Assembly: GCF_037975245.1 (NCBI RefSeq)
Contig: NC_092561.1
Location: 20,719,008-20,783,007, forward strand
DNA length: 64,000 nt
Reading direction: 5' to 3'
Source of the DNA: Apostichopus japonicus
Taxonomy: Eukaryota; Echinodermata; Holothuroidea; Aspidochirotida; Stichopodidae
In this document: positions 4,297 through 54,809 of the stretch, piece by piece
Layout of the letters: the number at the start of each line of letters is the position of its first letter
How positions within the stretch are numbered: position 1 is the stretch's first letter
Notes under the pieces: model-generated
What the model was told of the DNA's origin: nothing
The model's input: the letters and a program-made list of their open reading frames with translations, nothing else
The model's database searches: none
Program-made: the position numbers and the translations under genes

Positions 4297-4706
4297 GAGA
4301 CAAAAAACATTACAGACAAAGCAAAACAGAAGGACATAAAAACAAGTGACACTGCAGACGGAAAAAAATGTTTTGATATAATATAATAAAGTACTAACAT
4401 TTTAAGAAATTAATTTAGCAAAATTTGCATCAGATTTATGCTTCCTTCCCATTTTTATTTTCCAAATCATGTTTCATTGAGATATAAGCGTCTAAAATCT
4501 TTCTGTAAAAATTCACTTTTGGAACCTTTTTTGTTTTAGAAGTTCTTGCAAGTCCAAAACTTTGGCCATACTGATAAACTTCAAGTTATTTGGCACGATT
4601 GAATATTTCCGCATTGTCTGTTAAAATTACCTATAATATTTTAAGAAAATAAAAGCAAGCTCTTGAATACCGCAACAAATTTTAGTAACCGACTTACCAA
4701 GAAACC

Positions 4707-4806: not shown

Positions 4807-4918
4807 TTATTTCTTGAATTCTACCAGGAATGATACCACTTGAAATGGTGTCAGCTGAATATGGAAGGAATGATCTTTGTGAGTCATCTGTGATTCTTCT
4901 TCCTCTAAGAGATTACAC
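4807..4918 (-). CDS. MAN2C1: MAN2C1 exon 25 (residues 1032-1068, stop)
   Basis: Acceptor CTATAG|G. Encodes [10 protein letters not shown] and [18 protein letters not shown] followed by TAA, matching the human C-terminus LTFSPFQVLSLLLVL. Confidence 0.93.
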
Positions 4919-7900
4919 CTATAGAAAAAATAAAAATAAATAAAGCAATATTCTCTTGAACCCTTTTTTCCCCATCGCTACGCATTTCCCAGAAAATATT
5001 AGCCAATGTTAAAAGTACCATTGAAAGAAAGAATGGCTTGATTAAACATCCTGTTAGTTTTTCTTCACCAAGTCACTGTTAGGTAGCCAAGTAGTATAAT
5101 GAGTTCATTTTACTTAAGATATTTAATTGTATAAACTATGTTAGTATGTCCAGTGAATGTGCATGTGAAATACCAGAAAATCTCCGAAAAAAGTGTTGAC
5201 TTCTTTTGTAAATCATTTGAAACGAAAATGTAAAGAAAATGAACTACATATTATTATATAATTACAATTCAAATCAAGGTAAACAATCAGAAGTACTACT
5301 ATATGGTATTATATTTGTACTTAACACAAGGATACAGTTATTTTATTTATAAATCTAAAAGAATAAAAAAAAAATTTTCAATATGAAAAAATGTAATCAT
5401 CACCTGGCAACTGTAAGTACTGGAAATGGTGTGGAGAGAGTTCCCTGAGCATGACTGCCAAATGCCTCATACAGCCTGAGAACCAACACAACTCCTGAAC
5501 TCTGGTCTGCAGTATCTTCAGGCTGAAAGATATACAGTACAATAAATATTATAAATAGATAGACAGATAGATTTACAGATATACAGTACAATAAATATTA
5601 TAAATAGATAGACAGATAGATTTACAGATGTACAGATTGATTTTGGTTAAGCACACTATAGTAGAAATATTTCATAATTCAATTACCAGTCCATTCAATA
5701 TTAATAGTACATTCAATCATAGTACATCAGTTACTTCATATTTCAATCAAATAAAGTTATTTTCATATTTAAGTTTAAATTTCCTAAGAGAGTAGTCTGT
5801 GTCTTGTCTTGATCAAGTGATGATAAGGGAAGGACAATTACTGGAGTAAATATAGATAAAGAGAAAAGATTTTAAAGAAAGTCTTGACATGTTAACTGGG
5901 AATGATTTAGTTATCAAATTTTGTGAAGCTCTTAAAACAAGCTTCTTATGAAATACGATGGTTCCTAGATGAACAGAAACTGCTATAAATTTCCGCACTT
6001 GTTCAGCAATTCATCCAATTTGCATAGCATTTTGTGATGAGATACCCGATAAATTATTCCTGGTTAAACCGCCTCACCAATTTGACCGTCTCCAGGATAA
6101 TGGCTGGGTTATCAACAGTAAACATGGACAGGGCTTCTTTGAGTTGACCTGCTGAGACGGTTAATGGATTATTCAAATCATAGGCAGCTTGGATGACTCC
6201 GGCATCTTGGAATGTACCTAACGAGGGAAAATTCAAAATAGATAGATGACGTGGGATATTCTTAAGCCAATGGCTCTTAATGTAGAAAAGCTTATGGATA
6301 TTCAGCTGTGAATACAACATTTTGGGTGATCAAAGACTACCACTGTGTGGAAAGATAGTAAGCTGATGGACACCCACACCAATGGTGGGGTTTTGGGTGA
6401 TCACAGACATACCACTGTATGGAAAGGTAGTAAGCTGATGGACACCCACACCAATGGTTGGGTTTTGGGTGATCACAAACACACCACTGATGGACACCAC
6501 ACCAATGGTTGGGTTTTGGGTGATCACAAACACACCACTGATGGACACCCACCATTAAAGTAAAATGACAGGCATGCACACCGACGGTGATCATTGACTT
6601 ACCAGTGTGAGGGAAGACAGCATATGTGAATTGATGGACACCCATATCTGCAGTGGGGTCAGGATTCTTTGCAGACTTTAGCCTGTTAAAACAAGACAAC
6701 AAAATCACAAATGTCTGGGAGGAAAGTTACATAGTGACCCAGCTAAGAAGACTATGTTATAGTTTGAGAGCTACAGCATATTAATTTTAGATTGTGAATA
6801 CCCAAGTACAACGGCACATTACTCTAATTACTGCCTTACCAACAAGATGTCATGGATTAAGCTGCTATCAGGGCACCTATGATAATAACATATACATTTA
6901 TGCAGCACTTAACATAAAAACAAAATATCATAAAGCACTTTACATGAACTTAAGAAAACTAAGAATTAAAAATATCAGATACATACAGATTGAGAAAAGG
7001 TAGTAAAGTAGTCAAAACAAAATCAGAAAATAAATCAAACCAATCAATGAAGCACTCAATCAACTAGAAAATTTGATAAAACAAACTGAGCAATTCTTAC
7101 AAAATCTACCATCGGAAACAGGACAGAGGAACTGTTTGACCTTTATTAACTATTTCATAAATTCTAATTACTAAACACTTTTTTGTCATTTCATGCAAAC
7201 AGCAGTGCATCCACGGATCAAGTATAATACCATCTACCATTAAAATGTGAATGTGCAACGTGCTATTTGAGAAGACAAAATCCCCCAAAGTAAACTTTGG
7301 GAAGGGAATTTTAAACTTTAATCAACAGTTTCATATATTGTAGTCAGAAGTCAACCCCAATAATCTTCTTTTGGCTTCTTAACTTAAACAGCAGCACATA
7401 AATGGAGCACATACAATGTCATTCATCCTTGACAAATTTGGAAACCTTTTATATATACTATTTAGATATTTTAATATACACATTCAAACATAAATCAGAG
7501 AACAAAAACTTCTAAACAAGAATATTAAGAACACATACTGTGCTGCTTAATAACACCTCTATCACAATCTACTTACAGAGACAGTCTCATAATGTTGTGT
7601 TCCGTTGAGTGGCCGTATTTGCAGTCATTCAGAAGTGCTACACCCCAATTGTGCTGCGACATGTCGGCCCATTTATGACCTGTGACCTGAGCAGAAGAAA
7701 ATGAAAGACGATCATACATGTCGTAAAGATGACGTTTCTGTAGTATGGTGGATTAATAGGGACATAGGGAGAAAAACAAAGTGTCCCAAAATATCAAACT
7801 TTTGACTTTTTATCTCTTTTATTGGAATGCACTCAATGATAATAATTACAAGTTGTAACTCTGAAGTCCTAAAGAAAAAATTATTGGAATCTCCTGATGA

Positions 7901-10900
7901 GTTCAACTACTTTTGAACACTTCTAGGGATTTTTAGCAAACTAAAATTGAGAGGCCTTAACTTGACTATTTGGTGACACTGTTTAATTTTCAACTTGCCA
8001 AAGTAGTCAGTACTTTAAACAATTTAACACACTTCAGTCGTTTTTGACAGTTTTGGAAAATATAACTCTGTACTATGTACCTGTGTGTTAACAAATTATC
8101 ATGGTAAGTATTGACAAATTTTTCAAGCTAATCTGCCCACAAATTTGCTACCATATTTTTGCCATATTTCTCCTATTCCTTCAGACAGCTAGGTGCTGCA
8201 CAAAATAATTTATTATATTCACCTTGATGTCATGGCAACCTGATTAGATTATCTTGTCAGACAGTGCTGTACATCACCATGGTGACTTGTTAAAATATAA
8301 TTTTTCTTATGCCTGGTGTTCAAATAGCATTTCATCAAAAAGTATATATGTCACATGTAAAAGTCTAATAATACACCAAATATTAATAAGATATTTTTAT
8401 GTGATAACATATATGATGAGAGAGTGCAACAGCCACAAGTTTACCCGTCGATATCGTGTTTGGAGAAACTTTCAATTTTTTATATTTTAATAATCAAAAT
8501 CCATTCAAAAAGAGCATCAATAATAAGGCATTCAAAAGAGCTGTCAATAAACAATCACGATGCCAGGAGAGTCTTCTTTGAATCAAAACCGATAACTCCT
8601 TAAACGCTCTCACATGTAGCTGTTACAAGAAGTTAATAATTGCCCTATACAAGGTGACGACAGAGAAGAAAGCAGAAAACAAAATTGTTTTATTGGATTT
8701 ATAAAAGTTTACCTCATACTTAGCCCAGTCCCAGGATGTATTGGAATGAGTTGGTCTCTTCAAGTGACCAAATTGAACTTCATATGTAGCCTCTGACGAA
8801 TGGACATTGAAGGGAAACTCTACCTTCAATAATTTATGGTTTTCATGCCAGTTTACCTAAAAATTTAAGACAATGGTGCAAGAAAAATCATAATAATAAC
8901 CGTCAACAAAAACCATGACAAAAAGTTAATTTCACCAGAACAACAATAAAATCAAGACATACTTTGCAATATTCGTTAAGGAACTCAAGAAGATGCAAAA
9001 ACGATTTTAATATATTATTTTAATCAATGTTTGCAGATAAAGCAACAGTGAGATCAATTTGTTAATATTATTTAAAGGAAACAAACTCAGTCAGAAGTCA
9101 AATCTGTTTTAAATTTAACTTTAACTAATCGTGGTTCAAAGATAAAACAAACAGGGAGACATATATTCTTAATATTATTAAAGAAATTGAACTCAATAAA
9201 TACAACTGAAAACTATTTTAGATTAAATAAATCATGGTGAAAAGATGGAAACAACAGAAAAATATAGTTGTTATATCATAAAAATGGGCCAAACCCCCCC
9301 CCCCCCCAAAAGAAACAGGGTAATATGGCATCTCTTTACCGTTGTGTGGAAACGCAGCACAGTGTCTCCTCTGTCTAAGGATATCTCTTGCTCCACTGAG
9401 CTCTTAGAACTGATTTCAAGCTTGAATTTGATACTTTGTCTCAAGATGCCACTCTCATACTTTTCTGGTTCTTTGATGATCTTGGTCAAAGGTTGTCTGA
9501 TAATTAGGAACGGATGTTGGGTGTTAAATCAGGTTAAGATGTGAAGAATACATGATCTTGATTGATACACACATTGAAACCCTAAGTGTACAATCATCAT
9601 CTGATGGAAACCAAGGGTATGGTAGCCCACTGAAACTCTAAAAGCCACCTTTATTGTCAGTATTTCCAAGCAAGTTGTAAACAAATTTTTTTGGTAATGT
9701 TCTAACAATTTTGAATTGTCAGCCCAGGAAGTACAAGAGACATTTCCAAAGTTTATGGTCTGATTCTGACAATGTACAACAGTCATTCAATAATATACTG
9801 ATGAACATTTAATTGGCTCTGAAGTGTAAAAAGGAAAAAAACAAACTTACATATAGCCTGAAGACTTGTTTTAAGGTTTCCAACAAATTTGCATAACTCT
9901 GGTCTATTTCATTGCAAAATTCCAGCAATGTTCATTAATATTCATTAGTAATCCCAGACGCACAAAGTTGGGGACAAGCATATAAACGTTTTCTTGCTAG
10001 GTGTGTTTCTTTAGATGACGAAATATGTATTACATTTTTAAATACTTATAAATGTATGCAAATTTTAATGTACACTCAAAAACACAACATGGATGAGGCT
10101 AATTCTGTCACGTAATGTCCTCCTTGTAGTTCACTGACCGAAGTTAACCAAACTAATCATAGTAAATTAAAAGTAAAATCCAACAATAACAAGAAAAACT
10201 TATCTATACGGTATGCTAAAACCCATTATGGCTTATTTAAAAGAATAGTCCAGCGGTAATTTCATTTTGCCCAATGGGAAGAGGAACATACTCTAATGAT
10301 TATAGTGAAGTTTCCCTTTTAATTCCTACATAGCCATATATTAATATTTGAAACCTGGTAAAGCGACTTTGAAGCGAACAGGTCTGATGTCATAGTGACA
10401 CACAATGGCACCAAATTGCTTTCTTTTCTATTGTTTTCACATTAGACTGAACAGGGTTCTAATGGTACCTTAAGGGAATTTGTTAACAATATATCTATAA
10501 CAGTTTATCCATTATTAATGTTGAAATGCAGTCTCAATTTTGAATTTAGAAAACAGGAATAAATACATTTGAAAGAGAAACAGTATTAATCAATGCGTAT
10601 CTGTGACATTACGCCTGTTTGTGTCAAGTCCACTTTTTGGGATAAAACATGTCAACATCAAATCTTGCTATTTCATAAATCTCACATATAGGAACTGAAG
10701 GCATATTTCCAGAGGATACTGAGTATGTGTTCCTCTCTGATCGGTCAAACATAAATTTATGATGGACTATCCATTTACAATGCTTTCATATAACATGGCC
10801 CAATGGACTATCCATTTACAATGCTTTCATATAACATGGCCCAATGGACTATCCATTTACAATGCTTTCATATAACATGGCCCAATGGACTATCCATTTA

Positions 10901-13900
10901 CAATGCTTTCATATAACATGGCCCAATGGACTATCCATTTACAATGCTTTAATATAACATGGCCCAATGGACTATCCATTTACAATGCTTTCATATAACA
11001 TGGCCCAATGGACTATCCATTTACAATGCTTTCATATAACATATGGCCCAATGGACTATCCATTTACAATGCTTTCATATAACATGGCCCAATGGACTAT
11101 CCATTTACAATGCTTTCATATAACATGGCCCAATGGACTATCCATTTACAATGCTTTCATATAACATATGGCCCAATGGACTATCCATTTACAATGCTTT
11201 CATATAACATGGCCCAATGGCAGCAATGCCTTTGTATAAATCATCTACACAGCAAACTTGTAGACATGGTAACAGACACTGTACGTACCTCGTTTCCAAG
11301 TGATAGTCCATGATATCCCATGCATCCCAAAACATTGGAATATCATCATACAGTAAAAACTGGTTGCCATGGAAACCTTTCTTCGTATCATCCAAAAATG
11401 CATCCCTGGAATGTAAAAAGTTGGAAGCAATTAGTAAACAGAATGTGTACATGTGGTGGTCTTGCTTAAACTGAAATTTCGAATGACATTCCAAAAATAC
11501 AAATGAGTTCATCAAACCGACGTGACAATCTTTAAACACATTATTTTAACATGTTTGGAACATTTCTGAATGTTAATTTATCACCGGTATAATTATAAAC
11601 ATATTTATTAACATTTATGTTTATTAATTTCATTTAAATCGACATCTACCAGATAATTTAAATTAACTCTCAGTTTAATATATTTCCTCCAAATCAGACA
11701 GAATTAGTATTACTTAAAGAACAGCCATTTTGCTCACTAAATTGGATTCAGTAACAGAGATATTCTCCACATGACCTTTTGATGGAATTACTTGGGGATA
11801 TAAGAAAGTCAGGGGATACATTTAGCAATACTGTAAGATTGACATCTTATTCATGACTTCTATTCATTTCTTACTTTAGCAATACTGTAAGATTAACATC
11901 TTATTCATGACTTCTATTCATTTCTTAGTTTAGCAATACTGTAAGATTAACATCTTATTCATGACTTCTATTCACTTCTTAGTTTAGCAATACTGTAAGA
12001 TTAACATCTTATTCATGACTTCTATTCACTTCTTAGTTTAGCAATACTGTAAGATTAACATCTTATTCATGACTTCTATTCATTTCTTAGTTTAGCAATA
12101 CTGTAAGATTAACATCTTATTCATGACTTCTATTCATTTCTTAGTTTAGCAATACTGTATGATTAACATCTTATTCATGACTTCTATTCATTTCTTAGTT
12201 TAGCAATACTGTATGATTAACATCTTATTCATGACTTCTATTCATTTCTTAGTTTAGCAATACTGTAAGATTAACATCTTATTCATGACTTCTATTCATT
12301 TCTTAGTTTAGCAATACTGCATGATTAACATCTTATTCATGACTTCTATTCATTTCTTAGTTTAGCAATACTGCATGATTAACATCTTATTCATGACTTC
12401 TATTCATTTCTTAGTTTAGCAATACTGTAAGATTAACATCTTATTCATGACTTCTATTCATTTCTTAGTTTAGCAATACTGTAAGATTAACATCTTATTC
12501 ATGACTTCTATTCATTTCTTAGTTTAGCAATAATGTAAGATTAACATCTTATTCATGACTTCTATTCATTTCTTACTTTAGCAATACTGTAAGATTAACA
12601 TCTTATTCATGACTTCTATTGATTTCTTAGTTTAGCAATAATGTAAGATTAACATCTTATTCATGACTTCTATTCACTTCTTAGTTTAGCAATACTGTAT
12701 GATTAACATCTTATTCATGACTTCTATTCATTTCTTACTTTAGCAATACTGTAAGATTAACATCTTATTCATGACTTCTATTCATTTCTTACTTTAGCAA
12801 TACTGTAAGATTAACATCTTATTCATGACTTCTATTCATTTCTTAGTTTAGCAATACTGTAAGATTAACATCTTATTCATGACTTCTATTCACTTCTTAG
12901 TTTAGCAATACTGTAAGATTAACATCTTATTCATGACTTCTATTCACTTCTTAGTTTAGCAATACTGTAAGATTAACATCTTATTCATGACTTCTATTCA
13001 TTTCTTAGTTTAGCAATACTGTAAGATTAACATCTTATTCATGACTTCTATTCATTTCTTAGTTTAGCAATACTGTATGATTAACATCTTATTCATGACT
13101 TCTATTCATTTCTTAGTTTAGCAATACTGTAAGATTAACATCTTATTCATGACTTCTATTCATTTCTTAGTTTAGCAATACTGTATGATTAACATCTTAT
13201 TCATGACTTCTATTCATTTCTTAGTTTAGCAATACTGTATGATTAACATCTTATTCATGACTTCTATTCATTTCTTAGTTTAGCAATACTGTAAGATTAA
13301 CATCTTATTCATGACTTCTATTCATTTCTTAGTTTAGCAATACTGTAAGATTAACATCTTATTCATGACTTCTATTCATTTCTTAGTTTAGCAATAATGT
13401 AAGATTAACATCTTATTCATGACTTCTATTCATTTCTTACTTTAGCAATACTGTAAGATTAACATCTTATTCATGACTTCTATTCATTTCTTAGTTTAGC
13501 AATAATGTAAGATTAACATCTTATTCATGACTTCTATTCACTTCTTAGTTTAGCAATACTGTATGATTAACATCTTATTCATGACTTCTATTCATTTCTT
13601 ACTTTAGCAATACTGTAAGATTAACATCTTATTCATGACTTCTATTCATTTCTTACTTTAGCAATACTGTAAGATTAACATCTTATTCATGACTTCTATT
13701 CACTTCTTAGTTTAGCAATACTGTAAGATTAACATCTTATTCATGACTTCTATTCACTTCTTAGTTTAGCAATACTGTAAGATTAACATCTTATTCATGA
13801 CTTCTATTCACTTCTTAGTTTAGCAATACTGTAAGATTAACATCTTATTCATGACTTCTATTCATTTCTTAGTTTAGCAATACTGTAAGATTAACATCTT

Positions 13901-16900
13901 ATTCATGACTTCTATTCATTTCTTAGTTTAGCAATACTGTATGATTAACATCTTATTCATGACTTCTATTGATTTCTTAGTTTAGCAATACTGTAAGATT
14001 AACATCTTATTCATGACTTCTATTGATTTCTTAGTTTAGCAATAATGTAAGATTAACATCTTATTCATGACTTCTATTCATTTCTTAGTTTAGCAATACT
14101 GTAAGATTAACATCTTATTCATGACTTCTATTCATTTCTTAGTTTAGCAATACTGTATGATTAACATCTTATTCATGACTTCTATTCATTTCTTAGTTTA
14201 GCAATAATGTAAGATTAACATCTTATTCATGACTTCTATTCATTTCTTAGTTTAGCAATACTGTAAGATTAACATCTTATTCATGACTTCTATTCATTTC
14301 TTAGTTTAGCAATACTGTAAGATTAACATCTTATTCATGACTTCTATTCATTTCTTAGTTTAGCAATACTGTAAGATTAACATCTTATTCATGACTTCTA
14401 TTCATTTCTTAGTTTAGCAATACTGTAAGATTAACATCTTATTCATGATTTCTATTCATTTCATGGTTTAGCAATACTGTAAGATTAACATCTTATTCAT
14501 GACTTCTATTCATTTCTTAGTTTAGCAATAATGTAAGATTAACATCTTATTCATGACTTCTATTCATTTCTTAGTTTAGCAATACTGTAAGATTAACATC
14601 TTATTCATGACTTCTATTCATTTCTTAGTTTAGCAATACTGTAAGATTAACATCTTATTCATGACTTCTATTCATTTCTTAGTTTAGCAATACTGTATGA
14701 TTAACATCTTATTCATGACTTCTATTCATTTCTTAGTTTAGCAATACTGTAAGATTAACATCTTATTCATGACTTCTATTCATTTCTTAGTTTAGCAATA
14801 CTGTAAGATTAACATCTTATTCATGACTTCTATTCACTTCTTAGTTTAGCAATACTGTATGATTAACATCTTATTCATGACTTCTATTCATTTCTTAGTT
14901 TAGCAATACTGTAAGATTAACATCTTATTCATGACTTCTATTCATTTCTTAGTTTAGCAATACTGTATGATTAACATCTTATTCATGACTTCTATTCATT
15001 TCTTAGTTTAGCAATACTGTAAGATTAACATCTTATTCATGATTTCTATTCATTTCTTAGTTTAGCAATAATGTAAGATTAACATCTTATTCATGACTTC
15101 TATTCACTTCTTAGTTTAGCAATACTGTATGATTAACATCTTATTCATGACTTCTATTCATTTCTTAGTTTAGCAATACTGTAAGATTAACATCTTATTC
15201 ATGACTTCTATTCACTTCTTAGTTTAGCAATACTGTAAGATTAACATCTTATTCATGACTTCTATTCATTTCTTAGTTTAGCAATACTGTAAGATTAACA
15301 TCTTATTCATGACTTCTATTCATTTCTTAGTTTAGCAATACTGTATGATTAACATCTTATTCATGACTTCTATTCATTTCTTAGTTTAGCAATACTGTAA
15401 GATTAACATCTTATTCATGACTTCTATTCATTTCTTAGTTTAGCAATACTGTATGATTAACATCTTATTCATGACTTCTATTCATTTCTTAGTTTAGCAA
15501 TAATGTAAGATTAACATCTTATTCATGACTTCTATTCATTTCTTAGTTTAGCAATACTGTAAGATTAACATCTTATTCATGACTTCTATTCATTTCTTAG
15601 TTTAGCAATACTGTATGATTAACATCTTATTCATGACTTCTATTCATTTCTTAGTTTAGCAATACTGTAAGATTAACATCTTATTCATGACTTCTATTCA
15701 TTTCTTAGTTTAGCAATACTGTATGATTAACATCTTATTCATGACTTCTATTCACTTCTTAGTTTAGCAATACTGTATGATTAACATCTTATTCATGACT
15801 TCTATTCATTTCTTAGTTTAGCAATACTGTAAGATTAACATCTTATTCATGACTTCTATTCATTTCTTAGTTTAGCAATACTGTAAGATTAACATCTTAT
15901 TCATGACTTCTATTCATTTCTTAGTTTAGCAATACTGTAAGATTAACATCTTATTCATGACTTCTATTCATTTCTTAGTTTAGCAATACTGTATGATTAA
16001 CATCTTATTCATGACTTCTATTCACTTCTTAGTTTAGCAATACTGTATGATTAACATCTTATTCATGACTTCTATTCATTTCTTAGTTTAGCAATACTGT
16101 AAGATTAACATCTTATTCATGACTTCTATTCATTTCTTAGTTTAGCAATACTGTATGATTAACATCTTATTCATGACTTCTATTCATTTCTTAGTTTAGC
16201 AATAATGTAAGATTAACATCTTATTCATGACTTCTATTCATTTCTTAGTTTAGCAATACTGTAAGATTAACATCTTATTCATGACTTCTATTCACTTCTT
16301 AGTTTAGCAATACTGTATGATTAACATCTTATTCATGACTTCTATTCATTTCTTAGTTTAGCAATACTGTAAGATTAACATCTTATTCATGACTTCTATT
16401 CATTTCTTAGTTTAGCAATACTGTAAGATTAACATCTTATTCATGACTTCTATTCACTTCTTAGTTTAGCAATACTGTATGATTAACATCTTATTCATGA
16501 CTTCTATTCATTTCTTAGTTTAGCAATACTGTAAGATTAACATCTTATTCATGACTTCTATTCATTTCTTAGTTTAGCAATACTGTAAGATTAACATCTT
16601 ATTCATGATTTCTATTCATTTCTTAGTTTAGCAATAATGTAAGATTAACATCTTATTCATGACTTCTATTCACTTCTTAGTTTAGCAATACTGTATGATT
16701 AACATCTTATTCATGACTTCTATTCATTTCTTAGTTTAGCAATACTGTAAGATTAACATCTTATTCATGACTTCTATTCACTTCTTAGTTTAGCAATACT
16801 GTATGATTAACATCTTATTCATGACTTCTATTCACTTCTTAGTTTAGCAATACTGTATGATTAACATCTTATTCATGACTTCTATTCATTTCTTAGTTTA

Positions 16901-19900
16901 GCAATACTGTAAGATTAACATCTTATTCATGACTTCTATTCATTTCTTAGTTTAGCAATACTGTATGATTAACATCTTATTCATGACTTCTATTCATTTC
17001 TTAGTTTAGCAATACTGTAAGATTAACATCTTATTCATGACTTCTATTCACTTCTTAGTTTAGCAATACTGTATGATTAACATCTTATTCATGACTTCTA
17101 TTCATTTCTTAGTTTAGCAATACTGTAAGATTAACATCTTATTCATGACTTCTATTCATTTCTTAGTTTAGCAATACTGTATGATTAACATCTTATTCAT
17201 GACTTCTATTCATTTCTTAGTTTAGCAATAATGTAAGATTAACATCTTATTCATGACTTCTATTCATTTCTTAGTTTAGCAATACTGTATGATTAACATC
17301 TTATTCATGACTTCTATTCACTTCTTAGTTTAGCAATACTGTATGATTAACATCTTATTCATGACTTCTATTCATTTCTTAGTTTAGCAATACTGTAAGA
17401 TTAACATCTTATTCATGACTTCTATTCATTTCTTAGTTTAGCAATACTGTAAGATTAACATCTTATTCATGATTTCTATTCATTTCTTAGTTTAGCAATA
17501 ATGTAAGATTAACATCTTATTCATGACTTCTATTCATTTCTTAGTTTAGCAATACTGTATGATTAACATCTTATTCATGACTTCTATTCATTTCTTAGTT
17601 TAGCAATACTGTATGATTAACATCTTATTCATGACTTCTATTCATTTCTTAGTTTAGCAATACTGTAAGATTAACATCTTATTCATGACTTCTATTCATT
17701 TCTTAGTTTAGCAATACTGTATGATTAACATCTTATTCATGACTTCTATTCATTTCTTAGTTTAGCAATACTGTAAGATTAACATCTTATTCATGACTTC
17801 TATTCATTTCTTAGTTTAGCAATACTGTATGATTAACATCTTATTCATGACTTCTATTCATTTCTTAGTTTAGCAATACTGTATGATTAACATCTTATTC
17901 ATGACTTCTATTCATTTCTTAGTTTAGCAATACTGTAAGATTAACATCTTATTCATGACTTCTATTCATTTCTTAGTTTTTGTCCAACTGTAGTATTTAA
18001 TAATTGTTGACTTACACTAGCTGAGATTTCTTGTGGACATTTGACATAAGCATGTATGCTTGTAGCAACAATGTAAGAATAATATTCTGGTCACTTCTAT
18101 CAATCAACTCTTTGATTAAATGATTTATTTTTAAGTTACTCACAATCCTGACTTCTTATGTATCAGGCTCCTGATCCTTCCACATTTGTCGATTACTGCC
18201 TTCAAATTCTCGTTCTCGAGAATAACGTTTCCATCATCAAACTTTGTCCACTGTTTGAGTTCTTCTCCCTTGTTGTGGTCAACAATCTTTCCGACGCTTA
18301 GTGGAGTCACTCCCAACGACTGAGCCTCGACGTATACTGCAAACATATGAATGTGAAGAACAACGTAATTCCATTAACACAACTCTCTCATGCCAAGAGT
18401 TACTGCAATCATATGAATGTTAAGAACAACGTAATTCCATTAACACAACTTCTCTCATGCCAAGAGTTTGATGGTTGAATATGTGAGGGTACTGTAATGG
18501 AAAGATCACAGCCGACAAACTAAAGGTCATTCTTTCCAAGACAAAAACAAAATTTAAATTCTCTTTTTTGTCTTGGAGAAATTCCTGGTTTGTCCACTTC
18601 ACTTTATCAAGGTACTTAAAGTAGCTCTTTTTACTGGATATATTTTTGATAAGTCTTCAATTGTAGGGGGTAATTATCATCCCAATATAATGCTATCTAA
18701 TGAGTAATTTTTTTTTCAAGAATATCTCAAAAACGCTGTACTTTGCCTTGGGGAATGTTTAATAGTAATGTTTGAATTAGCAACAAAATGGTCTGGAAGA
18801 AATAATTGTCAAACTTAAGGGCACACCAATTACAAATATGTTGAATTGGTGAGTAAAGCTTCTGGATAAAGTCTTAACTTGTAAATTATTATTGACACAA
18901 AAGAAAAGAAGAATTTTTTATTTTAGGAGTTTTGGGAAATTTGCAGCATCTGTAACTTTTACAAAATGCATACAACTGCTTGAAAGGAGCATTTTCTTTT
19001 ATTCCAAAACTGCCAGTGATGCCAACTTTTCTCAATTTTACAGATTACTTTACCTGATACAGTATAACTGAATATTCATTAATACTGATGCAGTATAAAT
19101 GAATATTCATTAATACTGTATAAATGAATATTTTACCTAAAATATTCCCTTTCTTGTCAAGCTGAATACCATTCTGGTCCTGAGAATGATTCTGAAGCTG
19201 TTCAAACATCTTTCCAGGAATAGATATGACCTCTAACCTCTTCCAACAGTGAGGATTAAAAATAACCACTGATGATTTCAAGTCCGTATTCTGAGTTTGA
19301 GCCTGCAGTTGAATTATGCAAGATACAAAGTTAGAAAAAATGGAAACATTAAAATTTTTAAGCAAAAGTACCAAACATGGTATTTTAATACCCCAGGGTC
19401 TACAGAGGCTGAAGTATGCTGAGGTAAGGAGTTCCAATGTGTTGGAGTAGAAGATGCAAAGCATGAGTCAGGGTTGTCCGACTTTGTCGAAGATTAAACA
19501 CAAGATTAAGAGACTGGACCATACAAACAGCAGTATGTCAGAAGTAGAATCTTGACAATACAAGGTATCTTATCTGTAACCAGACTAGTGCAGTTCCTCA
19601 AAGGATATTTCAACAAGATACTGGGATTCAAACCATCTTTAACTCACCCAGATTTTAATATAGTGATATGAATTGCACCTCCTTAAATCACCCTGTTTCT
19701 AAAAGTTATACACCCACAAACAGAACTGCAGGCATTGTTACAGACTGTGAAGGTCATATGTTTCTAATAGAAATGTGGTATCATAAGTGACTGGGAAGTT
19801 TTACCTTTCTCTTCCTGTTCCAAGCCCCAGATGAGAGGGAGGCTAAACCTGCTTGAAGGAGAGGAGTAATATCTGCATTGACTTGCTCGTAGATGCTGCA

Positions 19901-22900: not shown

Positions 22901-25900
22901 TACATTGACAAACATAACGGTCGAGCTACTATTAAAACCAGCCTTCTGTGTTTGTTCGATAATTTTAACCAAATCAAGAACTTACTCAAAATAAGTGTCC
23001 AATCGATCAAATTGAGACACCATTTTACACTTGTCCCTAAAGTAGCTTTGTTACTGAATAAGAAAATTAAATGTATTTGATTCGATCTGCCACAATTCTT
23101 CCCTCGGACACGTTTACGTGTAATATATTTATACATTTGTACTTTCAATATTTTGAAGCTTTCATTTGGTATTTGAACTTATGAAAATTGACAATTCAAG
23201 CAAATGAAATAAATTATTGGGAGACATCAAAGTACGTTGAACAGGTTTCTGAAACTAAACAAGCTCGAATGCTGCTGGGAGTCTAAAGTCAAGAATAAAC
23301 TTTGACTTACTTTGGAAGTCCATCTGTGTCATGAAGTCTCTCAATTCTCTCTAACATGGTTTCACTGTTACAGAAAAACAAGAAAAATTATCAGAAATGG
23401 AGTTTGCGATGTAATCTATATATATGCGAATGACAGTTATTATAACATGATTATAAACAGTGAATCTTTCCATGAAAATTTATGTTGAAGTGAGAAAGCA
23501 AGAAGACGTCACTCAATATAAATGTAATTCACACAGATTCCAAAACCTTATATCTTTGAACCATCTTTGGGTCTTTTTCTCTCTTTCTCATGAACTTAAA
23601 GTAACCTTTACATGCACTCTCAAATCAAAATCCATTTTCTTATTGCCCCTGTATGAACATCTCTCCCGTAAAGATTGTTCTAGATTTCTGAGATATGATG
23701 TAACGTGTTCTGTAATGTACGTAGCTTACGTTGGTCCTCCCCCGCCGTCACTGTAACCATAAAGCATAATAGCACCATTCGTACGACCTTTGTCCTTGTG
23801 GCCTTGTCGTGTCTTCATAACCTGCAGGATAGAGGGCAGCATACAGTAATTACCTCACAGCTACAAAATTCACGTAGATAGTAGTGTCACTCAGCACATA
23901 AATCCCGTCCGAGAAATTTTTTCAGGGCAATTTCTCTTTCATCATCTGACTTTTTAATACCTAGATTCTTTCACCTTTTACGCATTGGAGAGGAATACAT
24001 TAATCATACAATAACAGGAATTATTTAGTCAGTATCGCATCACAAAATGGCTGTGCAGATATAAATACGAAAGCTTCACGAATATGAATATCAAAAGCCA
24101 GAGAGCAGTTTTTGTATGCATATATACCAAAATATAAGTATGAATATAAAAGATTTTGACTCTTTCTGTGTCACAGCTAAAATAGAAAACATTTGTTTCT
24201 CTTACCGTTCTAACATAAAAATGATAATTTATAATAATTTTGAGCTTTTTGTTGGAAACTTGCAAACTGCATGATATGATGATGGTAAGACACAGGATTG
24301 CATCGTCATTGCAATGCTGAAACCGTTAGGTTCACACCTTTCTGTTTGTTCTACACTATACATAGACTGACATGATTGTTTACCAAATTCTTACCGATTT
24401 CATGTCTATTTTGGTCCCGTAATTGTCAGCTGGTGGAAAGTGTGAGAGGCTTCGAGTCCCATCAAGCCCCTGCCACCAAAATGTGGTGTGCTAAATGAAA
24501 AACAAAAGTGACAACAATGTTTACCAGTTAAATAGGTGAGGTAGATGTTACCAGTTAAATAGGTGAGGTAGATGTTACCAGTTAAATAGGTGAGGTAGAT
24601 GTTACCAGTTAAATAGGTGAGGTAGATGTTACCGGTTAAATAGGTGAGGTAGATGTTACCGGTTAAATAGGTGAGGTAGATGTTACCGGTTAAATAGGTG
24701 AGGTAGATGTTACCGGTTAAATAGGTGAGGTAGATGTTACCGGTTAAATAGGTGAGGTAGATGTTACCGGTTAAATAGGTGAGGTAGATGTTACCAGTTA
24801 AATAGGTGAGGTAGATGTTACCAGTTAAATAGGTGAGGTAGATGTTACCAGTTAAATAGGTGAGGTAGATGTTACCAGTTAAATAGGTGAGGTAGATGTT
24901 ACCAGTTAAATAGGTGAGGTAGATGTTACCAGTTAAATAGGTGAGGTAGATGTTACCAGTTAAATAGGTGAGGTAGATGTTACCAGTTAAATAGGTGAGG
25001 TAGATGTTACCAGTTAAATAGGTGAGGTAGATGTTACCAGTTAATAGGTGAGGTAGATGTTACCAGTTAAATAGGTGAGGTAGATGTTACCAGTTAAATA
25101 GGTGAGGTAGATGTTACCAGTTAAATAGGTGAGGTAGATGTTACCAGTTAATAGGTGAGGTAGATGTTACCAGTTAAATAGGTGAGGTAGATGTTACCAG
25201 TTAAATAGGTGAGGTAGATGTTACCAGTTAAATAGGTGAGGTAGATGTTACCAGTTAATAGGTGAGGTAGATGTTACCAGTTAAATAGGTGAGGTAGATG
25301 TTACCAGTTAAATAGGTGAGGTAGATGTTACCAGTTAATAGGTGAGGTAGATGTTACCAGTTAATAGGTGAGGTAGATGTTACCAGTTAAATAGGTGAGG
25401 TAGATGTTACCAGTTAAATAGGTGAGGTAGATGTTACCAGTTAAATAGGTGAGGTAGATGTTACCAGTTAAATAGGTGAGGTAGATGTTACCAGTTAAAT
25501 AGGTGAGGTAGATGTTACCAGTTAAATAGGTTAGGTAGATGGGAGAGTGCAATTGTAGAGATGAGACAGTTAAGAGAGGGGCGCAGTAATTGACAGAGAC
25601 AGGGTCAATATGACTAATGGCTGAGTACATACAAGATCTTATGAGTGCTAACGGCTGAGTACATACAAGATCTTGTGAGTACTAACGGCTGAGTACATAC
25701 AAGATCTTATGAGTACTAACGGCTGAGTACATACAAGATCTTATGAGTACTAACGGCTGAGTACATACAAGATCTTATGAGTACTAACGGCTGAGTACAT
25801 ACAAGATCTTATGAGTACTAACGGCTGAGTACATACAAGATCTTATGAGTGCTAACGGCTGAGTACATACAAGATCTTATGAGTGCTAACGGCTGAGTAC

Positions 25901-28900
25901 ATACAAGATCTTATGAGTGCTAACGGCTGAGTACATACAAGATCTTATGAGTACTAACGGCTGAGTACATACAAGATCTTAAGAGTACTAACGGCTGAGT
26001 ACATACAAGATCTTGTGAGTACTAACGGCTGAGTACATACAAGATCTTATGAGTGCTAACGGCTGAGTACATACAAGATCTTATGAGTACTAACGGCTGA
26101 GTACATACAAGATCTTATGAGTGCTAACGGCTGAGTACATACAAGATCTTATGAGTACTAACGGCTGAGTACATACAAGATCTTATGAGTACTAACGGCT
26201 GGGTACATACAAGATCTTATGAGTGCTAACGGCTGAGTACATACAAGATCTTATGAGTACTAACGGCTGAGTACATACAAGATCTTATGAGTGCTAACGG
26301 CTGAGTACATACAAGATCTTATGAGTACTAACGGCTGAGTACATACAAGATCTTATGAGTGCTAACGGCTGAGTACATACAAGATCTTATGAGTACTAAC
26401 GGCTGAGTACATACAAGATCTTATGAGTGCTAACGGCTGAGTACATACAAGATATTATGAGTCTTAACGGCTGAGTACATACAAGATCTTATGAGTCTTA
26501 ACGTCTGAGTACATACAAGATCTTATGATTACTAACGGCTGAGTACATACAAGATCTTATGAGTACTAACGGCTGAGTACATACAAGATCTTATGAGTAC
26601 TAACGGCTGAGTACATACAAGATCTTATGAGTGCTAACGGCTGAGTACATACAAGATCTTATGAGTACTAACGGCTGAGTACATACAAGATCTTATGAGT
26701 GCTAACGGCTGAGTACATACAAGATCTTATGAGTACTAACGGCTGAGTACATACAAGATCTTATGAGTGCTAACGGCTGAGTACATACAAGATCTTATGA
26801 GTACTAACGGCTGAGTACATACAAGATCTTATGAGTACTAACGGCTGAGTACATACAAGATCTTATGAGTACTAACGGCTGAGTACATACAAGATCTTAT
26901 GAGTACTAACGGCTGAGTACATACAAGATCTTATGAGTAGTAACGGCTGAGTACATACAAGATCTTATGAGTGCTAACGGCTGAGTACATACAAGATCTT
27001 ATGAGTACTAACGGCTGAGTACATACAAGATCTTATGAGTGCTAACGGCTGAGTACATACAAGATCTTAAGAGTGCTAACGGCTGAGTACATACAAGATC
27101 TTATGAGTCCTAACGGCTGAGTACATACAAGATCTTATGAGTGCTAACGGCTGAGTACATACAAGATCTTATGAGTGCTAACGGCTGAGTACATACAAGA
27201 TCTTGTGAGTACTAACGGCTGAGTACATACAAGATCTTATGAGTCCTAACGGCTGAGTACATACAAGATCTTATGAGTACTAACGGCTGAGTACATACAA
27301 GATCTTATGAGTACTAACGGCTGAGTACATACAAGATCTTGTGAGTACTTACGGCTGAGTACATACAAGATCTTATGAGTAACAATGGCTGAGTACATTC
27401 AAGATCTTATGAGTACTAACGGCTGAGTACATGGAAGATCTTATGAGTACTAATGGCTGAGTACATACAAGATCTTATGAGTACTAACGGCTGAGTACAT
27501 ACAAGATCTTATGAGTACTAACGGCTGAGTACATACAAGATCTTATGAGTAGTAACGGCTGAGTACATGGAAGATCTTATGAGTACTAATGGCTGAGTAC
27601 ATACAAGATTTTATGAGTACTAATGGCTGAGTACATACAAGATCTTCTGAGTACTAACGGCTGAGTACATACAAGATATTCTGAGTACTTACTGGGAATT
27701 TGTTCACTAAGCTCCAACTGATTTTGATTGTCAAAAATCGGCGAATCCCGACGCCGTTCATAATCTGAGGGAGTTGAGCGGAGTATCCAAAGGTGTCTGG
27801 CAGCCAAAACTGACGACAAAAGGTTGGAAAATGAATATTGATTAGACTAATCTTCCGTACAGTCAACTACATTTCTGCAGTGATCTTGCAGGAATGAAAA
27901 AACCATATTTCAGTACTGTAATTCAAAAACTGAAGTAAAAAGACACACATACTGTAGTACTAACTTTGTCAATGGAAAAATTGTTTTATTCGATTCGTAC
28001 AAGGTATAAGAACAGGCCTTGAAAAGGACTCAATATTAATGAAGATTTGACATGAAAATGATCGTGTATAAATTGTCTTAAAGCTGCAGCTTTCATGTTT
28101 ACTGGTTTTGATATTTGAGTGGCTGTGCAACACTTAGCCCACTGGAATCTGCCTAGCAGATATTCACACAGACTATCTAGTCAGTGTGAATAATAAACCT
28201 TGAAATGAGCCCAGCCTGCCTGAGTGCGGGAGGGGGGGGGGGGGAGGTCATCGAATCTGTGTATAGACACTTTTTTATATTGGATGTTTCTCCATACTAT
28301 CATCTCATACTGTTAGAATCAAATCATTATCCGGGCTGTAGTCGACTTTGTTTTTTAATTTTCGGAGTGGCGTTTAACCAAATGCTACGAGAAAATTAAA
28401 GAAATAAATAAATATGACCTGATCTGGACTCCAAATGTTGAGAACTAAATGGAATCAATAATAGTTGCTCAATAATCTTCACTTTGTAATACATGAACAC
28501 TTGTACTCTTATCATATGATAACACTCAATTAAGTTTGCCAAAAAGGCTGGACAAACACAGAAAACTGCTCGAAAAGGGAGAAAAACTGGAAGAGAAGAA
28601 CATAATGTAAATATTGTTGATTTATATTTGTTAATCCAGTCAAATAGGCCACTGAAAATAGTCTCTTATGATAGCAAAACCTACCTCTGAGCATTTCCGA
28701 CCAAATTCTTGCATAAAGAACCGTTGGCCGTGGAGAAACTGTCTGATGAAGGCCTCACCGCTGGGGACGTTCCCATCCATCTCCACCCATGTTCCTCCGA
28801 CAGGGATGAAGCGACCTTCTGCAGCCTTGGCTTTTATCTTTTGGTACAGGGCTGGGTAATTTTCCTTAACCCATGCAAACTGTTGAGCCTAAAAATTAAA

Positions 28901-31900
28901 GGAATTATTTGGAATTTATGACGACTAAACTTTGAGGAAGTGTAATTTCGTTTCGTTTTGTTTATTCCAATATAAATTGCATAAAATACAGTTCATAAAT
29001 AGGAAAATGTTACAATGACTTGTACAGAGTACAGACTATTATCTCTTTCGTGTGAAGAGTTTCGAAATTTTACAATAAATAGCAGTGTCGTCAGCGTACT
29101 TAATGACAGAACAATTGGAATTTGACTGTATTTCATTAGTAAACATTGTAAAGAGCAATGCCGAGAGGGGACCACCTTGCGGAACACCAATTTTGATATT
29201 GGAGGTATCAGAGAGACCTTTTTCAATCTTGACTTGTCTGGACCACCCCTTAAGGAAGTTTGCAAGCCAGTGGGTTAACCATGGTTCGATACCAAAATTC
29301 ATAAGATCATTTAATAAATAATTTGGTAAAACGATGTTAAAAGCACTTGAAAAATCAAGGAATAAAACTTTGGCAACAGTAGTGTCTTTACAATTCAAAC
29401 CTGAAACAATGTCATGGACTAGGGTTAAAAAAGCGTCTGTACATGATACCCCCTTCCTGTAGGCAAACTGGCAATTGTACCCGTACAGGCTAAGAGCTTC
29501 GGTGACATATGGTAATAAAGTCTATTGCATGCAATTGAACCAATGCTAGCAAGATCGATTGGCCTGTAGTCATTGACAGCAGTAGGTCTAGGTCTCTTGG
29601 GAATGGGTGCAATTATTGCATGCTTCCAGGAAGAGATACTTATTATATAAAAGATGAAACTTCACACACATTTCATTTCTTGGCTAACCTTGGAATTCCC
29701 CTAAATGTCCTCTTATTCCCCTAAATGTCCCCTTATTACACTAAATGTCATATAAATGTCACTGAACTATTAAAGTTAATTATATCAACAAAATTCTAAA
29801 ACAATAATTCAACAAAGACCTTATTAAGATAAAACATGAAAATATGTTTCTATCAATCACCTGAGAACACACAAAGGTTAAGTCTGGGTACTTGTCCATC
29901 AATTGAATCACTGTAGACCAGGTACGGGCACATTTACGAACTGTTTCTGCATATGGCCACAACCAGGCTGTGTCAAAATGAAACGGAAAAAAGAAAGGCA
30001 TGAAACAAAATCAGAAGTAGAAATAAAGGGAAGGGCAGGACAGGCCAGGGCAAGGCAGGACAGGCCAGGGCAGGGCAGGACAGGACAGGGCAGGGCAGGG
30101 CAGGGCAGGACAGGCCAGGGCAGGGCAAGGCAGGCCAGGGCAGGGCAGGGCAGGGCAGGGCAGGGCAGGGCAGGCCAGGGCAAGGCAGGACAGGGCAGGG
30201 CAAGGCAGGGCAGGGAAAATTCCATAGCATTAACTCATTCTAAAAAGGGAAGCATATTTGCTGACTCATTTCCTTCCACTCTTTATTTTCTTGTGATAAA
30301 CAGAAATGTTTACAAAAGGCACAAGCAAACAATTCCTGATATGAAAGTTGTCATACACTTGTTTACACACTTTCAAGGCTCCCTTTGTGATGACTGACAA
30401 TTCTCCAGTTACCTGTATCAATGTGTGCATGCCCCATAGCATGTATTGTGAACTGACTGTCTCCATTCTTCTCCCGAAAGAAATTGCGAGCGACCTCCTT
30501 GGCCTTCTTGCAGCCGTTCTCTTGATCGAGGGTACAGAGATTGACCATGTGGTTTACGGTGTGTAGCGCCTGGACACTTCTTTGGTCATCTTCTGGTAAT
30601 TCCTAGTATAAAATAATACAGCCAAATGTTAAAAACAGTTCTAAACCGGATTGAAACCGGTTTCAAATTCTACATGGTACCTTGTAATTGAGACCAATTC
30701 AAAACCACTGAACTTTGTAACTGAGACTGGTCCAAATCCTATATGGTTTTCCTTTTCAGGTATGATACTGCTGTGGTATTGTCTAATAATAATATGTGTG
30801 TCAGTAGCAAAGCCTGCCTCCATGTGAAACTTTGCTGTTGGTAGAATTTGCACTTGCTTTATAACTTGTGGACGGGGGTGAAATGAGTGAGATTATAAGT
30901 CCATTAAAATGTATATCTTGGCCTTCGATGCCATTACGAACAGGGACAAACGTTCCAATCTTCTTCAGATTTAGCTCGTGAGGAGTAAACAATTTATGGA
31001 GATGCTGATCAACCAGATGAATTCATTTTCTTTTTATCTCTGAAGTATATCAGTACGCACACACAGTACTTTCACATTACTCTTGACACTGCTCTGTGCT
31101 AAGATTATTTTTCCTTTTCATTTCTGAGGTATATCGGCATACATGCAGTACTTTCATATCATTCTCAACACTGCCTCGTGCTGAGAGTAATTTTGTAGAG
31201 TAGTCTCTGAAGTATATCTGCATATCAGCATACACACAGTACTATCACTTCATTTCTCAACACTGCCTCGTGCTGAAAGAACGTAAAGAATTTAATTTTA
31301 CCGTAGCAATATCCGTCAACAGCTCAATATCTGTGATGAGGTCATGGACTTCCATGTCAAGGGTCACAAGGTCACACTTTGACAAGGTGAAGGTCATGTC
31401 TGGTTTTGGTGGACCAATCATGTAGTCACCAGCTCCAAACATTGTGTTGCAGGCCATTTCAATGTACAGAATGATTCTATAAGTCATTGAAAATGTTTTC
31501 AAGTTAGTTTAGTTTTAACTTTCTTTAATTCTACTTAAGCAGAATTTTAAATGTGACAAAAGCCAAAGCCCTAAAAAACAGAAACTTTTAGCTAGAACAG
31601 GATTTGAACTTGTGACTTCAGAATGACAAGTCCTGTGCTTTTAATGACAAAGCTATCCAGCCCTTAGTTGATCTTTAACCCTTATTTAATCCATTCTTTG
31701 AGGTTTGGTGCCACCCAATAGACAGGTCTTTGTTCAACACTGGTATGCAAGGTATGTACAGTATTCTGTGACCATTCATACATCTCATGGTATTGCTATA
31801 TATTTAATTATTCCAATTTACACACTTTACAACAGAAACCACAGACAGACAGACATCTGCAATAGAACAGCATGTTCAAATACTTGAAATCAGTTTTAAA

Positions 31901-34900
31901 CTTTCACAATTAACCAAAGTTCTTACTTTCCCTTGATTGACTTGAAATCATCCTCCAGGATAAAGTCTATCCTCTCCTCTGGATTTAACCCTTGTAGAGG
32001 AACTCCGTCACGGCTCCAGATCTGACAAAAGAAAAGCAACAATCTTGAATATGTACATTGAGACCATTCTACAACTCACACTCTTCACAACCAAGTTTAA
32101 CCCTACGGAATACTCCATCAAAGGTCTGAGTTTAACCCTCTTGTATACTCCATCAAAGGTCTGAGTTTAACCCTCTGGTATACTCCATCAAAGGTCTGAG
32201 TTTAACCCTCTGGTATACTCCATCAAAGGTCTGAGTTTAACCCTCTGGTATACTCCATCAAAGGTCTGAGTTTAACCCTCTGGTATACTCCATCAAAGGT
32301 CTGAGTTTAACCCTCTGGTATACTCCATCAAAGGTCTGTGTTTAACCCTCTGGTATACTCCATCAAAGATCTGAGTTTAACCCTCTGGTATACTCCATCA
32401 ATGGTCTTAGTTTAACCCTCTGGTATACTCCATCAAAGGTCTTAGTTTAGCCCTCTGGTTCACTCCATCAAAGGTCTGAGTTTAACCCTCTGGTATACTT
32501 CATCAAAGGTCTGAGTTTAACCCTCTGGTATACTCCATCAAAGGTCTGAGTTTAACCCTCTGGTATACTCCATCAAAGGTCTGTGTTTAACCCTCTGGTA
32601 TACTCCATCAAAGGTCTGAGTTTAACCCTCTGGTATACTCCATCAAAGGTCTGAGTTTAATCCTCTGGTATACTCCATCAAAGGTCTGAGTTTAGCCCTC
32701 TGGTTCACTCCATCAAAGGTCTGAGTTTAACCCTCTGGTATACTCCATCAAAGGTCTGAGTTTAACCCTCTGGTATACTCCATCAAAGGTCTGAGTTTAA
32801 CCCTCTGGTATACTCCATCAAAGGTCTGAGTTTAACCCTCTGGTATACTCCATCAAAGGTCTGAGTTTAACCCTCTGGTATACTCCATCAAAGGTCTGAG
32901 TTTAATCCTCTGGTATACTCCATCAAAGGTCTGAGTTTAGCCCTCTGGTTCACTCCATCAAAGGTCTGAGTTTAACCCTCTGGTATACTTCATCAAAGGT
33001 CTGAGTTTAACCCTCTGGTATACTCCATCAAAGGTCTGAGTTTAACCCTCTGGTATACTCCAAAGGTCTGAGTTTAACCCTCTGGCATACTCCATCAAAG
33101 GTCTGAGTTTAACCCTCTGGTATACTCCATCAAAGGTCTGAGTTTAACCCTCTGGTATACTCCATCAAAGGTCTGTGTTTAACCCTCTGGTATACTCCAT
33201 CAAAGGTCTGAGTTTAACCCTCTGGTATACTCCATCAAAGGTCTGAGTTTAACCCTCTGGTATACTCCATCAAAGGTCTTAGTTTAGCCCTCTGGTTCAC
33301 TCCATCAAAGGTCTGAGTTTAACCCTCTGGTATACTCTATCAAAGGTCTGAGTTTAACCCTCTGGCATACTCCATCAAAGGTCTGAGTTTAACCCTCTGG
33401 TATACTCTATCAAAGGTCTGAGTTTAACCCTCCAGTCTACATCAATGAATTTGAAAACAATTTTCTGGAGGTTATTTTATAAAGATTTTAAACTAAGCTC
33501 TAATACTGAAAGCTTTAGAAGAAAGTCCCAGAGTCTTTTTCAGGGAATGTGTTTTGTTACTAAACCATTGCTTAAAATTAAGTATACATAAATTGTGCTG
33601 CAAAGTACCCAACGAAGTTTGCCTGGCTATTCATGAAAACTTTATTTCAGGTACTGATCAAAGTTTTCAGCAATGACACAATATTGCAATCATTTTATCT
33701 CACAGTACCAACAGATAACTAGATGTCAATGGCACTCCCAACAAACAATCTAAACTTCATTCCAAGGTTGTATCAATTTACTCTCAGGGATCCACCATTA
33801 AAGTATAATTCACTTTTGAAAACCATTTGTTTGTTTGAAGGTTTGCAAAATCACTCCAGGGAGAATAGATGATGAATTTGCTATCATCACAAACAAAGAA
33901 TGGATGATTGCTGAAATTGTTTTCAAACTTTTGATAACCATCGTTGTTCAAATAAATGATCACTCTTTTACGACCATGACACAATAGGCTCACATTTTAT
34001 TGTCTCAGATAGCGTTTGCAATTTCGTGCCGACTCACATCACAGTTTTTATTACGTACATCAATAAAAGTTACATTTTGCTCCACTGGCAGTAAAATGAG
34101 ACCGAAGATCTAAATGATGACAAACAATTATTCAGCAGTTTTCTAACAAGTCGACCCCAATTGTTCTTTGAAAGAACAATCTTGTTAAGTACTGTGGCAG
34201 TTAGCTGTGATGACACTATTTTGGTTGTCTAGTGTTCTCACTACATTACAGCAGCTTAAGTCAAGACACTATCTTTGAGTCTAGTGTCCTCACTTCATTA
34301 CAGAACATTACAGGTAACAAACGCCTACAGTGGAATTACGACCTTCCTTACCGGTTCCGAACCTCCGGACATACAATCAGCGTCCATAGCCTTAGCTACA
34401 TGGTTAGCTATGGACGCTTTACTGAAATCTGTTGAAAGGGTTGACTAAAGCTGGAAGCAAAATACACCTACCAATGCCTCGGATCCGGAGTGCCACTGTA
34501 AACGTACGTGTTGAGATTTCCATGCCTTTGGAATCTGAAATTCAAGCCGAAACCAATGTGTGGACCATCTAAGGAATAGAAGCAAAAAAAAGGGAATTGA
34601 ACCTAACTTTTACCTACACTTTGTTTGACCTTCCTTCCATTACAATGTTTAGTATATACAGTATACTGAATTACAGCATTAGTCAACCGAATTGAGAAAA
34701 GTCGGTAGCTCCATTAAACTAAGAAGATATTAAATGTTATCAAATGATTGGGCATTTTTTGCCAAAGAAAGCCCCCTTAAAATGAAAGTGGATTTATGAA
34801 AATGAAAATACATTGAACTAATTAAGTTAACTGTACATCTGAATACTACAGAATATGTGAATTTCTCTAATCTCAATTGTACATACTCAATAAATCTACT

Positions 34901-54644: not shown

Positions 54645-54809
54645 GTAAGACCTGCTTGTCCTAGGCTAGAGACAATGGGTAATACTACCTTAGCAATTTC
54701 TACTTTGTGTGCAATGTTACATTAGGTGTTCTCATGTTAAATATGGCAAGCAATAGCTAACTCTGTCAGTCGCTGGTTTAACATTGTAGATCATTGGTTA
54801 TATTTTCAG

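Follow-up and report, generated by a model that had tools for sequence, protein, structure and literature searches.

A MAN2C1-like alpha-mannosidase gene of Apostichopus japonicus carries tandem repeats that span its exon-intron boundaries or lie close beside them. The repeats straddle or touch the donors of exons 9, 13 and 22 and the acceptor of exon 17, which supports reading them as boundary minisatellites like the lancelet 'mirages', accompanied by others near boundaries. We favor this reading, in which the repeats would be tolerated by-products, at a probability of roughly 0.6. Positions below refer to the window, meaning the whole 64,000-nucleotide stretch of DNA that was analyzed. The exon model is predicted, having been made by reading the sequence, and its spliced form keeps an intact reading frame.

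4807–37909, minus strand (running from 37909 to 4807): MAN2C1-like gene, 25 predicted coding exons, 24 introns of which 24 are GT-AG, 1068 amino acids (spliced model and Pfam)

Pfam matches in the product (PF01074, 8.8e-93; PF09261, 1.4e-23; PF07748, 7.1e-62; PF17677, 3.9e-13; PF22907, 8.8e-29) comprise the GH38 N, middle, C and C2 domains together with an Ams1-like jelly-roll, so that the N, middle and C domains marking membership of GH38 are all present. The GH38 assignment rests on these domains, and within that family we presume the name MAN2C1, which had been given in the sequence-only reading. The coding sequence has a GC content of 0.449 and a GC3 of 0.471.

Eight repeats at junctions had been described in the sequence-only reading, and all eight were found where it placed them, although the copies at exon 22 are degenerate. 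They had been counted as affecting eight of 24 introns. That count is wrong because two introns enter it twice: intron 9 is bounded by the exon 9 donor and the exon 10 acceptor, and intron 16 by the exon 16 donor and the exon 17 acceptor. The correct figures are 8 of 48 junctions and 6 of 24 introns.

31018–31280, minus strand: three degenerate copies at a spacing of about 83–93 bp, the first about 21 bp into intron 5, at the exon 5 donor (loose TRF and alignment)
25613–27692, minus strand: 34-bp array of about 61 copies that starts at the exon 9 donor (TRF and alignment)
24521–25541, minus strand: 27-bp array of 38 copies that ends 30 bp short of the exon 10 acceptor (TRF)
22181–22515, minus strand: unit of about 142 bp (copy spacing 148 and 143 bp) across the exon 13 donor, copied twice into intron 13 (TRF and alignment)
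19054–19132, minus strand: 31-bp repeat 4–18 bp inside intron 16, at the exon 16 donor (TRF and alignment)
18335–18468, minus strand: 66/67-bp tandem duplication that takes in the exon 17 acceptor plus 1 nt of the exon (2 nt by TRF) (TRF and alignment)
6279–6644, minus strand: 72/51-bp degenerate repeats derived from the end of exon 22 and its donor (TRF and alignment)
5528–5635, minus strand: exact 49-bp tandem duplication, 2.2 copies, 5–8 bp before the exon 24 acceptor (TRF and alignment)

Pairwise alignments of the repeat copies were judged against 200 shuffles each. The cases at exons 5, 9, 13, 16, 17 and 24 give scores of 53–154 against shuffle maxima of 22–29, and the exon 10 case, with its array edge at the 30 bp that had been described, rests on TRF. 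At the exon 5 donor, the three copies said to lie about 20 bp away start near 31280, 31187 and 31104 and are 77–86% alike; TRF misses them at standard weights, and looser weights give a 226-bp stretch. The overlap reported at the exon 9 donor is borne out, as intron bases 1–33 (27692–27660) match the following 34-bp unit at 94% identity, and the array therefore begins at the donor GT itself. Intron 9 consists almost entirely of its two minisatellites, leaving an array-free length of 101 bp.

The unit at the exon 13 donor comprises 29 exonic nucleotides plus the start of the intron, and the exon end is indeed copied twice, with identities of 29/29 and 27/29. At the exon 16 donor the repeat lies within about 6 bp by alignment, as had been proposed, but its unit is 31 bp and not 29 bp; two TRF rows place its edge either 4 or 18 bp from the donor, with 18 bp being the cleaner row. 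The duplication described as containing the exon 17 acceptor does so, its copies being 96% alike and its end falling 1 nt inside the exon, and the duplication at the exon 24 acceptor likewise agrees with its earlier description. The end of exon 22 had been read as copied four times. Copies exist there, but they are degenerate and align weakly as single pieces (13–30 nt, scores of 26–28 against shuffle maxima of 21–24), while one 72-bp unit that was tested reaches a score of 52 in a 59-column alignment with the exon end and donor, higher than any of 2000 dinucleotide shuffles (maximum 41). The array-free length of intron 22 is 150 bp. In the second exon 13 copy, mismatches number 0/29 in the exon-derived part and 13/103 in the intron part (P = 0.033, one copy pair); the other two copy pairs give P = 0.39 and 0.22, and we do not claim selective conservation of the copied exon sequence.

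Six further strict TRF arrays, missing from the earlier list, all lie farther from junctions (59–164 bp).

32094–33432, minus strand: 35-bp array of 38 copies, its edge 72 bp short of the exon 4 acceptor (TRF)
30027–30215, minus strand: AGGGC array with a 5-bp unit, 59 bp upstream of the exon 7 acceptor (TRF)
29695–29749, minus strand: 20-bp repeat, with the exon 7 donor 111 bp away (TRF)
11821–17979, minus strand: 54-bp array of 114 copies, with the exon 17 donor 164 bp away (TRF)
10762–11220, minus strand: 41-bp array of 11 copies, with the exon 18 donor 68 bp away (TRF)
5682–5717, minus strand: 18-bp repeat within intron 23, with the exon 24 acceptor 159 bp away (TRF)

Other elements were observed in and around the gene. 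A 31/61-bp minisatellite occupies 2373–4298, about 500 bp past the stop codon and outside the gene; long arrays thus occur outside introns as well. C2H2 zinc-finger ORFs built of 84-bp repeats stand beside the gene at 39844–40710 (minus), 44824–45906 (plus) and 54794–55864 (plus), with Pfam run on the second only. An ORF at 53179–54450 (minus) combines a GIY-YIG domain (8.6e-05) with a match to reverse transcriptase (1.8e-04) whose 21.7 bits fall under the curated cut-off of 29.6; we take it to resemble a Penelope-type retroelement. Frames at 29039–29661 (minus), in intron 7, look by eye like the remnant of a LINE-type reverse transcriptase with a YADD motif. The only match in an Rfam search of the window at gathering scores is a tRNA match of 50.8 bits at 31589–31662 (minus), in intron 4, possibly a tRNA-derived SINE.

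To avoid the selection in the earlier list, the distance of repeats to junctions was assessed on the full set of the gene's strict TRF arrays (13 after merging of 18 rows), which total 12,216 bp, or about 41% of the intronic length. Their edges lie 72, 59, 111, 0, 30, 0, 4 (or 18), 0, 164, 68, 48, 159 and 5 bp from the nearest junction. In the main null model each array was collapsed to one unit and placed at random within its own intron, with straddling of the boundary allowed; for the 18-bp repeat at 5682 a distance of 100 bp was used, the neighboring array being collapsed to one unit. Against this null the 13 arrays are closer to junctions than expected by a threshold-free measure, the mean log distance (P = 0.016), and the fact that all of them fall within 164 bp gives P = 0.002 in a same-intron test of maximum distance. 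The counts within fixed distances, whose P values are uncorrected for multiple testing and come from a gene picked because it was striking, are 5 against 2.82 expected within 10 bp (P = 0.11), 6 against 3.97 within 30 bp (P = 0.15), 7 against 5.12 within 50 bp (P = 0.17), 10 of 13 against 6.36 within 75 bp (P = 0.015), 11 against 7.12 within 100 bp (P = 0.010) and 12 against 8.46 within 150 bp (P = 0.013). The same-intron excess at 75, 100 and 150 bp, together with the threshold-free result, counts against purely random placement. For direct contact, within 10 bp, there is no clear enrichment.

These figures shift with the choices made. When any intron of the gene is allowed, the threshold-free P is 0.0005 and the count within 10 bp is 5 against 1.75 (P = 0.019). 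With 18 bp as the distance of the exon 16 repeat, the same-intron count within 10 bp is 4 against 2.8 (P = 0.29) and the threshold-free P becomes 0.023; counting exon 22 as a contact gives 6 against 2.8 within 10 bp in the same-intron test (P = 0.03). With the three arrays of unit below 25 bp removed, P is 0.008 (n = 10). Keeping one array per intron, P at 10, 30, 75 and 100 bp is 0.14, 0.33, 0.016 and 0.04 when the nearer is kept (n = 10), and 0.62, 0.56, 0.011 and 0.03 when the farther is kept, with the 18-bp repeat at a non-matching 51 bp. A null of insertion points in array-free introns yields 5 of 13 within 10 bp against 0.97 expected (P = 0.001) and is too strict because it forbids straddling. 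When the array-free intron length is capped, P is 0.013 at 600 bp, 0.064 at 400 bp and 0.19 at 300 bp; the excess near junctions thus fades if introns were about 300–400 bp long when the arrays arose. Most strict arrays are more than 90% matched internally by TRF, and they may therefore be recent, born in introns near their present size. Fifteen weak repeats found by loose TRF only, a set that excludes the exonic repeat at 19832–19881, show no same-intron excess at six thresholds (P = 0.23–0.79); placed in any intron, the same 15 reach P = 0.03 at both 75 bp and 100 bp, while a KS test of relative distance yields P = 0.036. Overall, clustering near junctions exceeds chance to a moderate degree in this one gene, chosen after the fact. 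A published genome-wide test of repeat distance to splice sites did not come up under the search terms used and may still exist.

If the repeats are mirages of the lancelet kind, they can be accounted for as follows. In a repeat-prone genome, slippage or the fill-in repair of staggered breaks would produce duplications of tens to about 150 bp, and some of the short ones would then expand into arrays. A duplication wholly within an exon would presumably alter the protein and be lost; one that is intronic or straddles a boundary could survive if the spliceosome keeps to the original site, the extra copies remaining intronic. The intact frame and the mostly weaker copied sites described below would agree with such survival of straddling duplications. 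The joins of the 49-bp duplication share TCT, compatible with an origin by slippage at microhomology, and those of the 67-bp duplication have little or no sequence in common, which may be compatible with fill-in repair. Nearness to junctions would follow in part from short introns (introns 9 and 22) and from straddling, and the remaining modest excess within about 75–150 bp may come either from having happened to pick a striking gene or from a genuine local bias.

That bias is the core of the idea first proposed from the sequence, in which a local mutational process in this lineage would render the DNA around splice junctions liable to duplicate in tandem. We regard it as possible but doubtful. 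The same-intron tests speak for it in part, above all the clustering of the 13 arrays at P = 0.016, as do their strength once the short-unit arrays are dropped and the boundary duplications known at several lancelet genes in the source texts available; its dependence on intron length, the lack of a same-intron excess among the weak repeats and its origin in a single striking gene with 13 arrays and uncorrected thresholds weigh against it. R-loops, suggested as a cause of such a process, find no backing, as sense-strand GC skew over 11 repeat stretches (GC 0.22–0.45; the set leaves aside the 5-bp, 20-bp and 18-bp arrays) is positive in 6 and negative in 5, and without a consistent sign no common R-loop signature is visible. 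Slippage-type duplication is plausible as a general cause of the repeats. Wider still, and in our view unlikely, is the proposal that splice junctions are genome-wide birth hotspots of tandem duplications in this lineage, with exon edges seeding minisatellites that drive intron growth.

The remaining explanations concern what the copies do or how they came to be. The sequence-only reading had also suggested that duplications at junctions are retained because a copy serves as a backup or alternative splice site, an idea to which we give little credence. Sites were scored with position weights from the gene's own 24 donors and 24 acceptors, leave-one-out. The real site outscores its copies at exon 13 (3.2, the gene's lowest donor, against 1.6 and −2.0), exon 17 (acceptor, 3.8 against 2.4) and exon 22 (9.4 against at most 5.3); the exon 13 repeat also has a GT at 22372, not copied from the donor, whose score of 4.2 exceeds the real donor's 3.2. 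The real exon 9 donor, at 7.2, stands above every GT of the array there but one, and most in-register units score at most 2.6. Points in favor of a backup role are that one of the roughly 61 units, at 27352 (minus), carries a donor-like GCC|gtaagt scoring 7.8, that the exon 22 copies keep moderate donors (the best, GTG|gtatgt, at 5.3), and that several arrays contain many site-like words, including 52 acceptor-like words in the 34-bp array and 38 donor-like words in the 27-bp array of intron 9 (counted at scores of at least the 10th percentile of the gene's own sites). However, each of seven copied sites tried (two at exon 13, one at exon 17, four at exon 22; the exon 9 unit is outside this set) brings in a premature stop. 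Their use would add 148 or 291 nt at exon 13, 66 nt at exon 17 and 67–262 nt at exon 22, and the first stop would come after 530, 687 or 980–1045 residues instead of 1068. Weaker copies and truncation disfavor a general backup role and fit the tolerance of intronic by-products. The scores suggest that splice-site copies in boundary minisatellites would mostly be weaker than the original sites, and we infer that normal splicing would be undisturbed. Mis-assembly that made or inflated the arrays is very improbable. One lancelet mirage was aberrantly assembled in a draft genome according to the available text of PMC3087553, and in that of PMC3902484 the repeat numbers of lancelet PGBD5 differ between two assemblies, yet the PGBD5 repeats were confirmed there when sequencing data were re-examined; in our gene the copies diverge mostly by scattered substitutions and indels (75–96% alike), unlike doubled reads, with the exact 49-bp pair excepted. 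The least probable explanation is that the introns themselves were born by tandem duplication of exon segments with AG|GT (Rogers-type gain). The exon 13 and 22 copies do consist of exon end plus donor, but when donor and acceptor flanks were compared over 80 bp each way, 0 of 24 introns stood clearly above shuffles, at least 17 of 200 shuffles reaching the observed score in each. The same-intron flank homology that would mark recently gained introns of this type is thus missing in the 24 introns, and we rejected them as candidates.

The likeness to lancelet mirages is structural. In the available text of PMC3087553, mirages are tandem duplications of exon-intron boundaries in Adh3 and the globins BflGb6 and BflGb9, with regular splicing of these genes reported as undisturbed; that of PMC3902484 describes splice-site repeats for lancelet PGBD5, citing troponin C as well. 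As given in the accessible parts of both papers, the units measure 10–160 bp and both boundary types are involved. The MAN2C1-like repeats similarly span or abut donors or acceptors. Units holding an exon edge together with intron occur at the exon 13 donor (29 exonic nt), the exon 22 donor (degenerate) and the exon 17 acceptor (1 nt), and both boundary types are represented (donors of exons 9, 13 and 22, acceptor of exon 17) with units of 34–148 bp. Unlike the lancelet genes as those texts present them, this gene has six introns involved and several arrays longer than 1 kb beside short duplications. By these structural features we read its repeats as what is probably a dense new instance of mirages, and the number of introns affected in one gene is, as far as the available published texts show, unusual.

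Two other cases offer further comparison. In IFI6 (6-16), Turri in 1995 reportedly described a minisatellite with multiple splice donor sites in which the copied donors are used. The MAN2C1-like gene resembles it in that a minisatellite with site-like sequence in its units lies at the donor of an exon; use of the copies, reported for IFI6, would be hypothetical in our gene. In human segmental duplications, tandem repeats at exon-intron boundaries have a mean unit of about 30 bp and change splicing, and they can form novel introns, according to the available text of PMC2812944. The minisatellite-sized units at boundaries are common to both, whereas the copied sites of the MAN2C1-like gene mostly score below the real ones, and those tried would truncate the protein, in contrast to the human repeats as described there.

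The MAN2C1-like gene adds one dense case to the few reported boundary minisatellites found in the literature. A junction bias that held across the genome would link local DNA duplication to transcription or splicing, and it would offer a route to intron growth and new splice sites.
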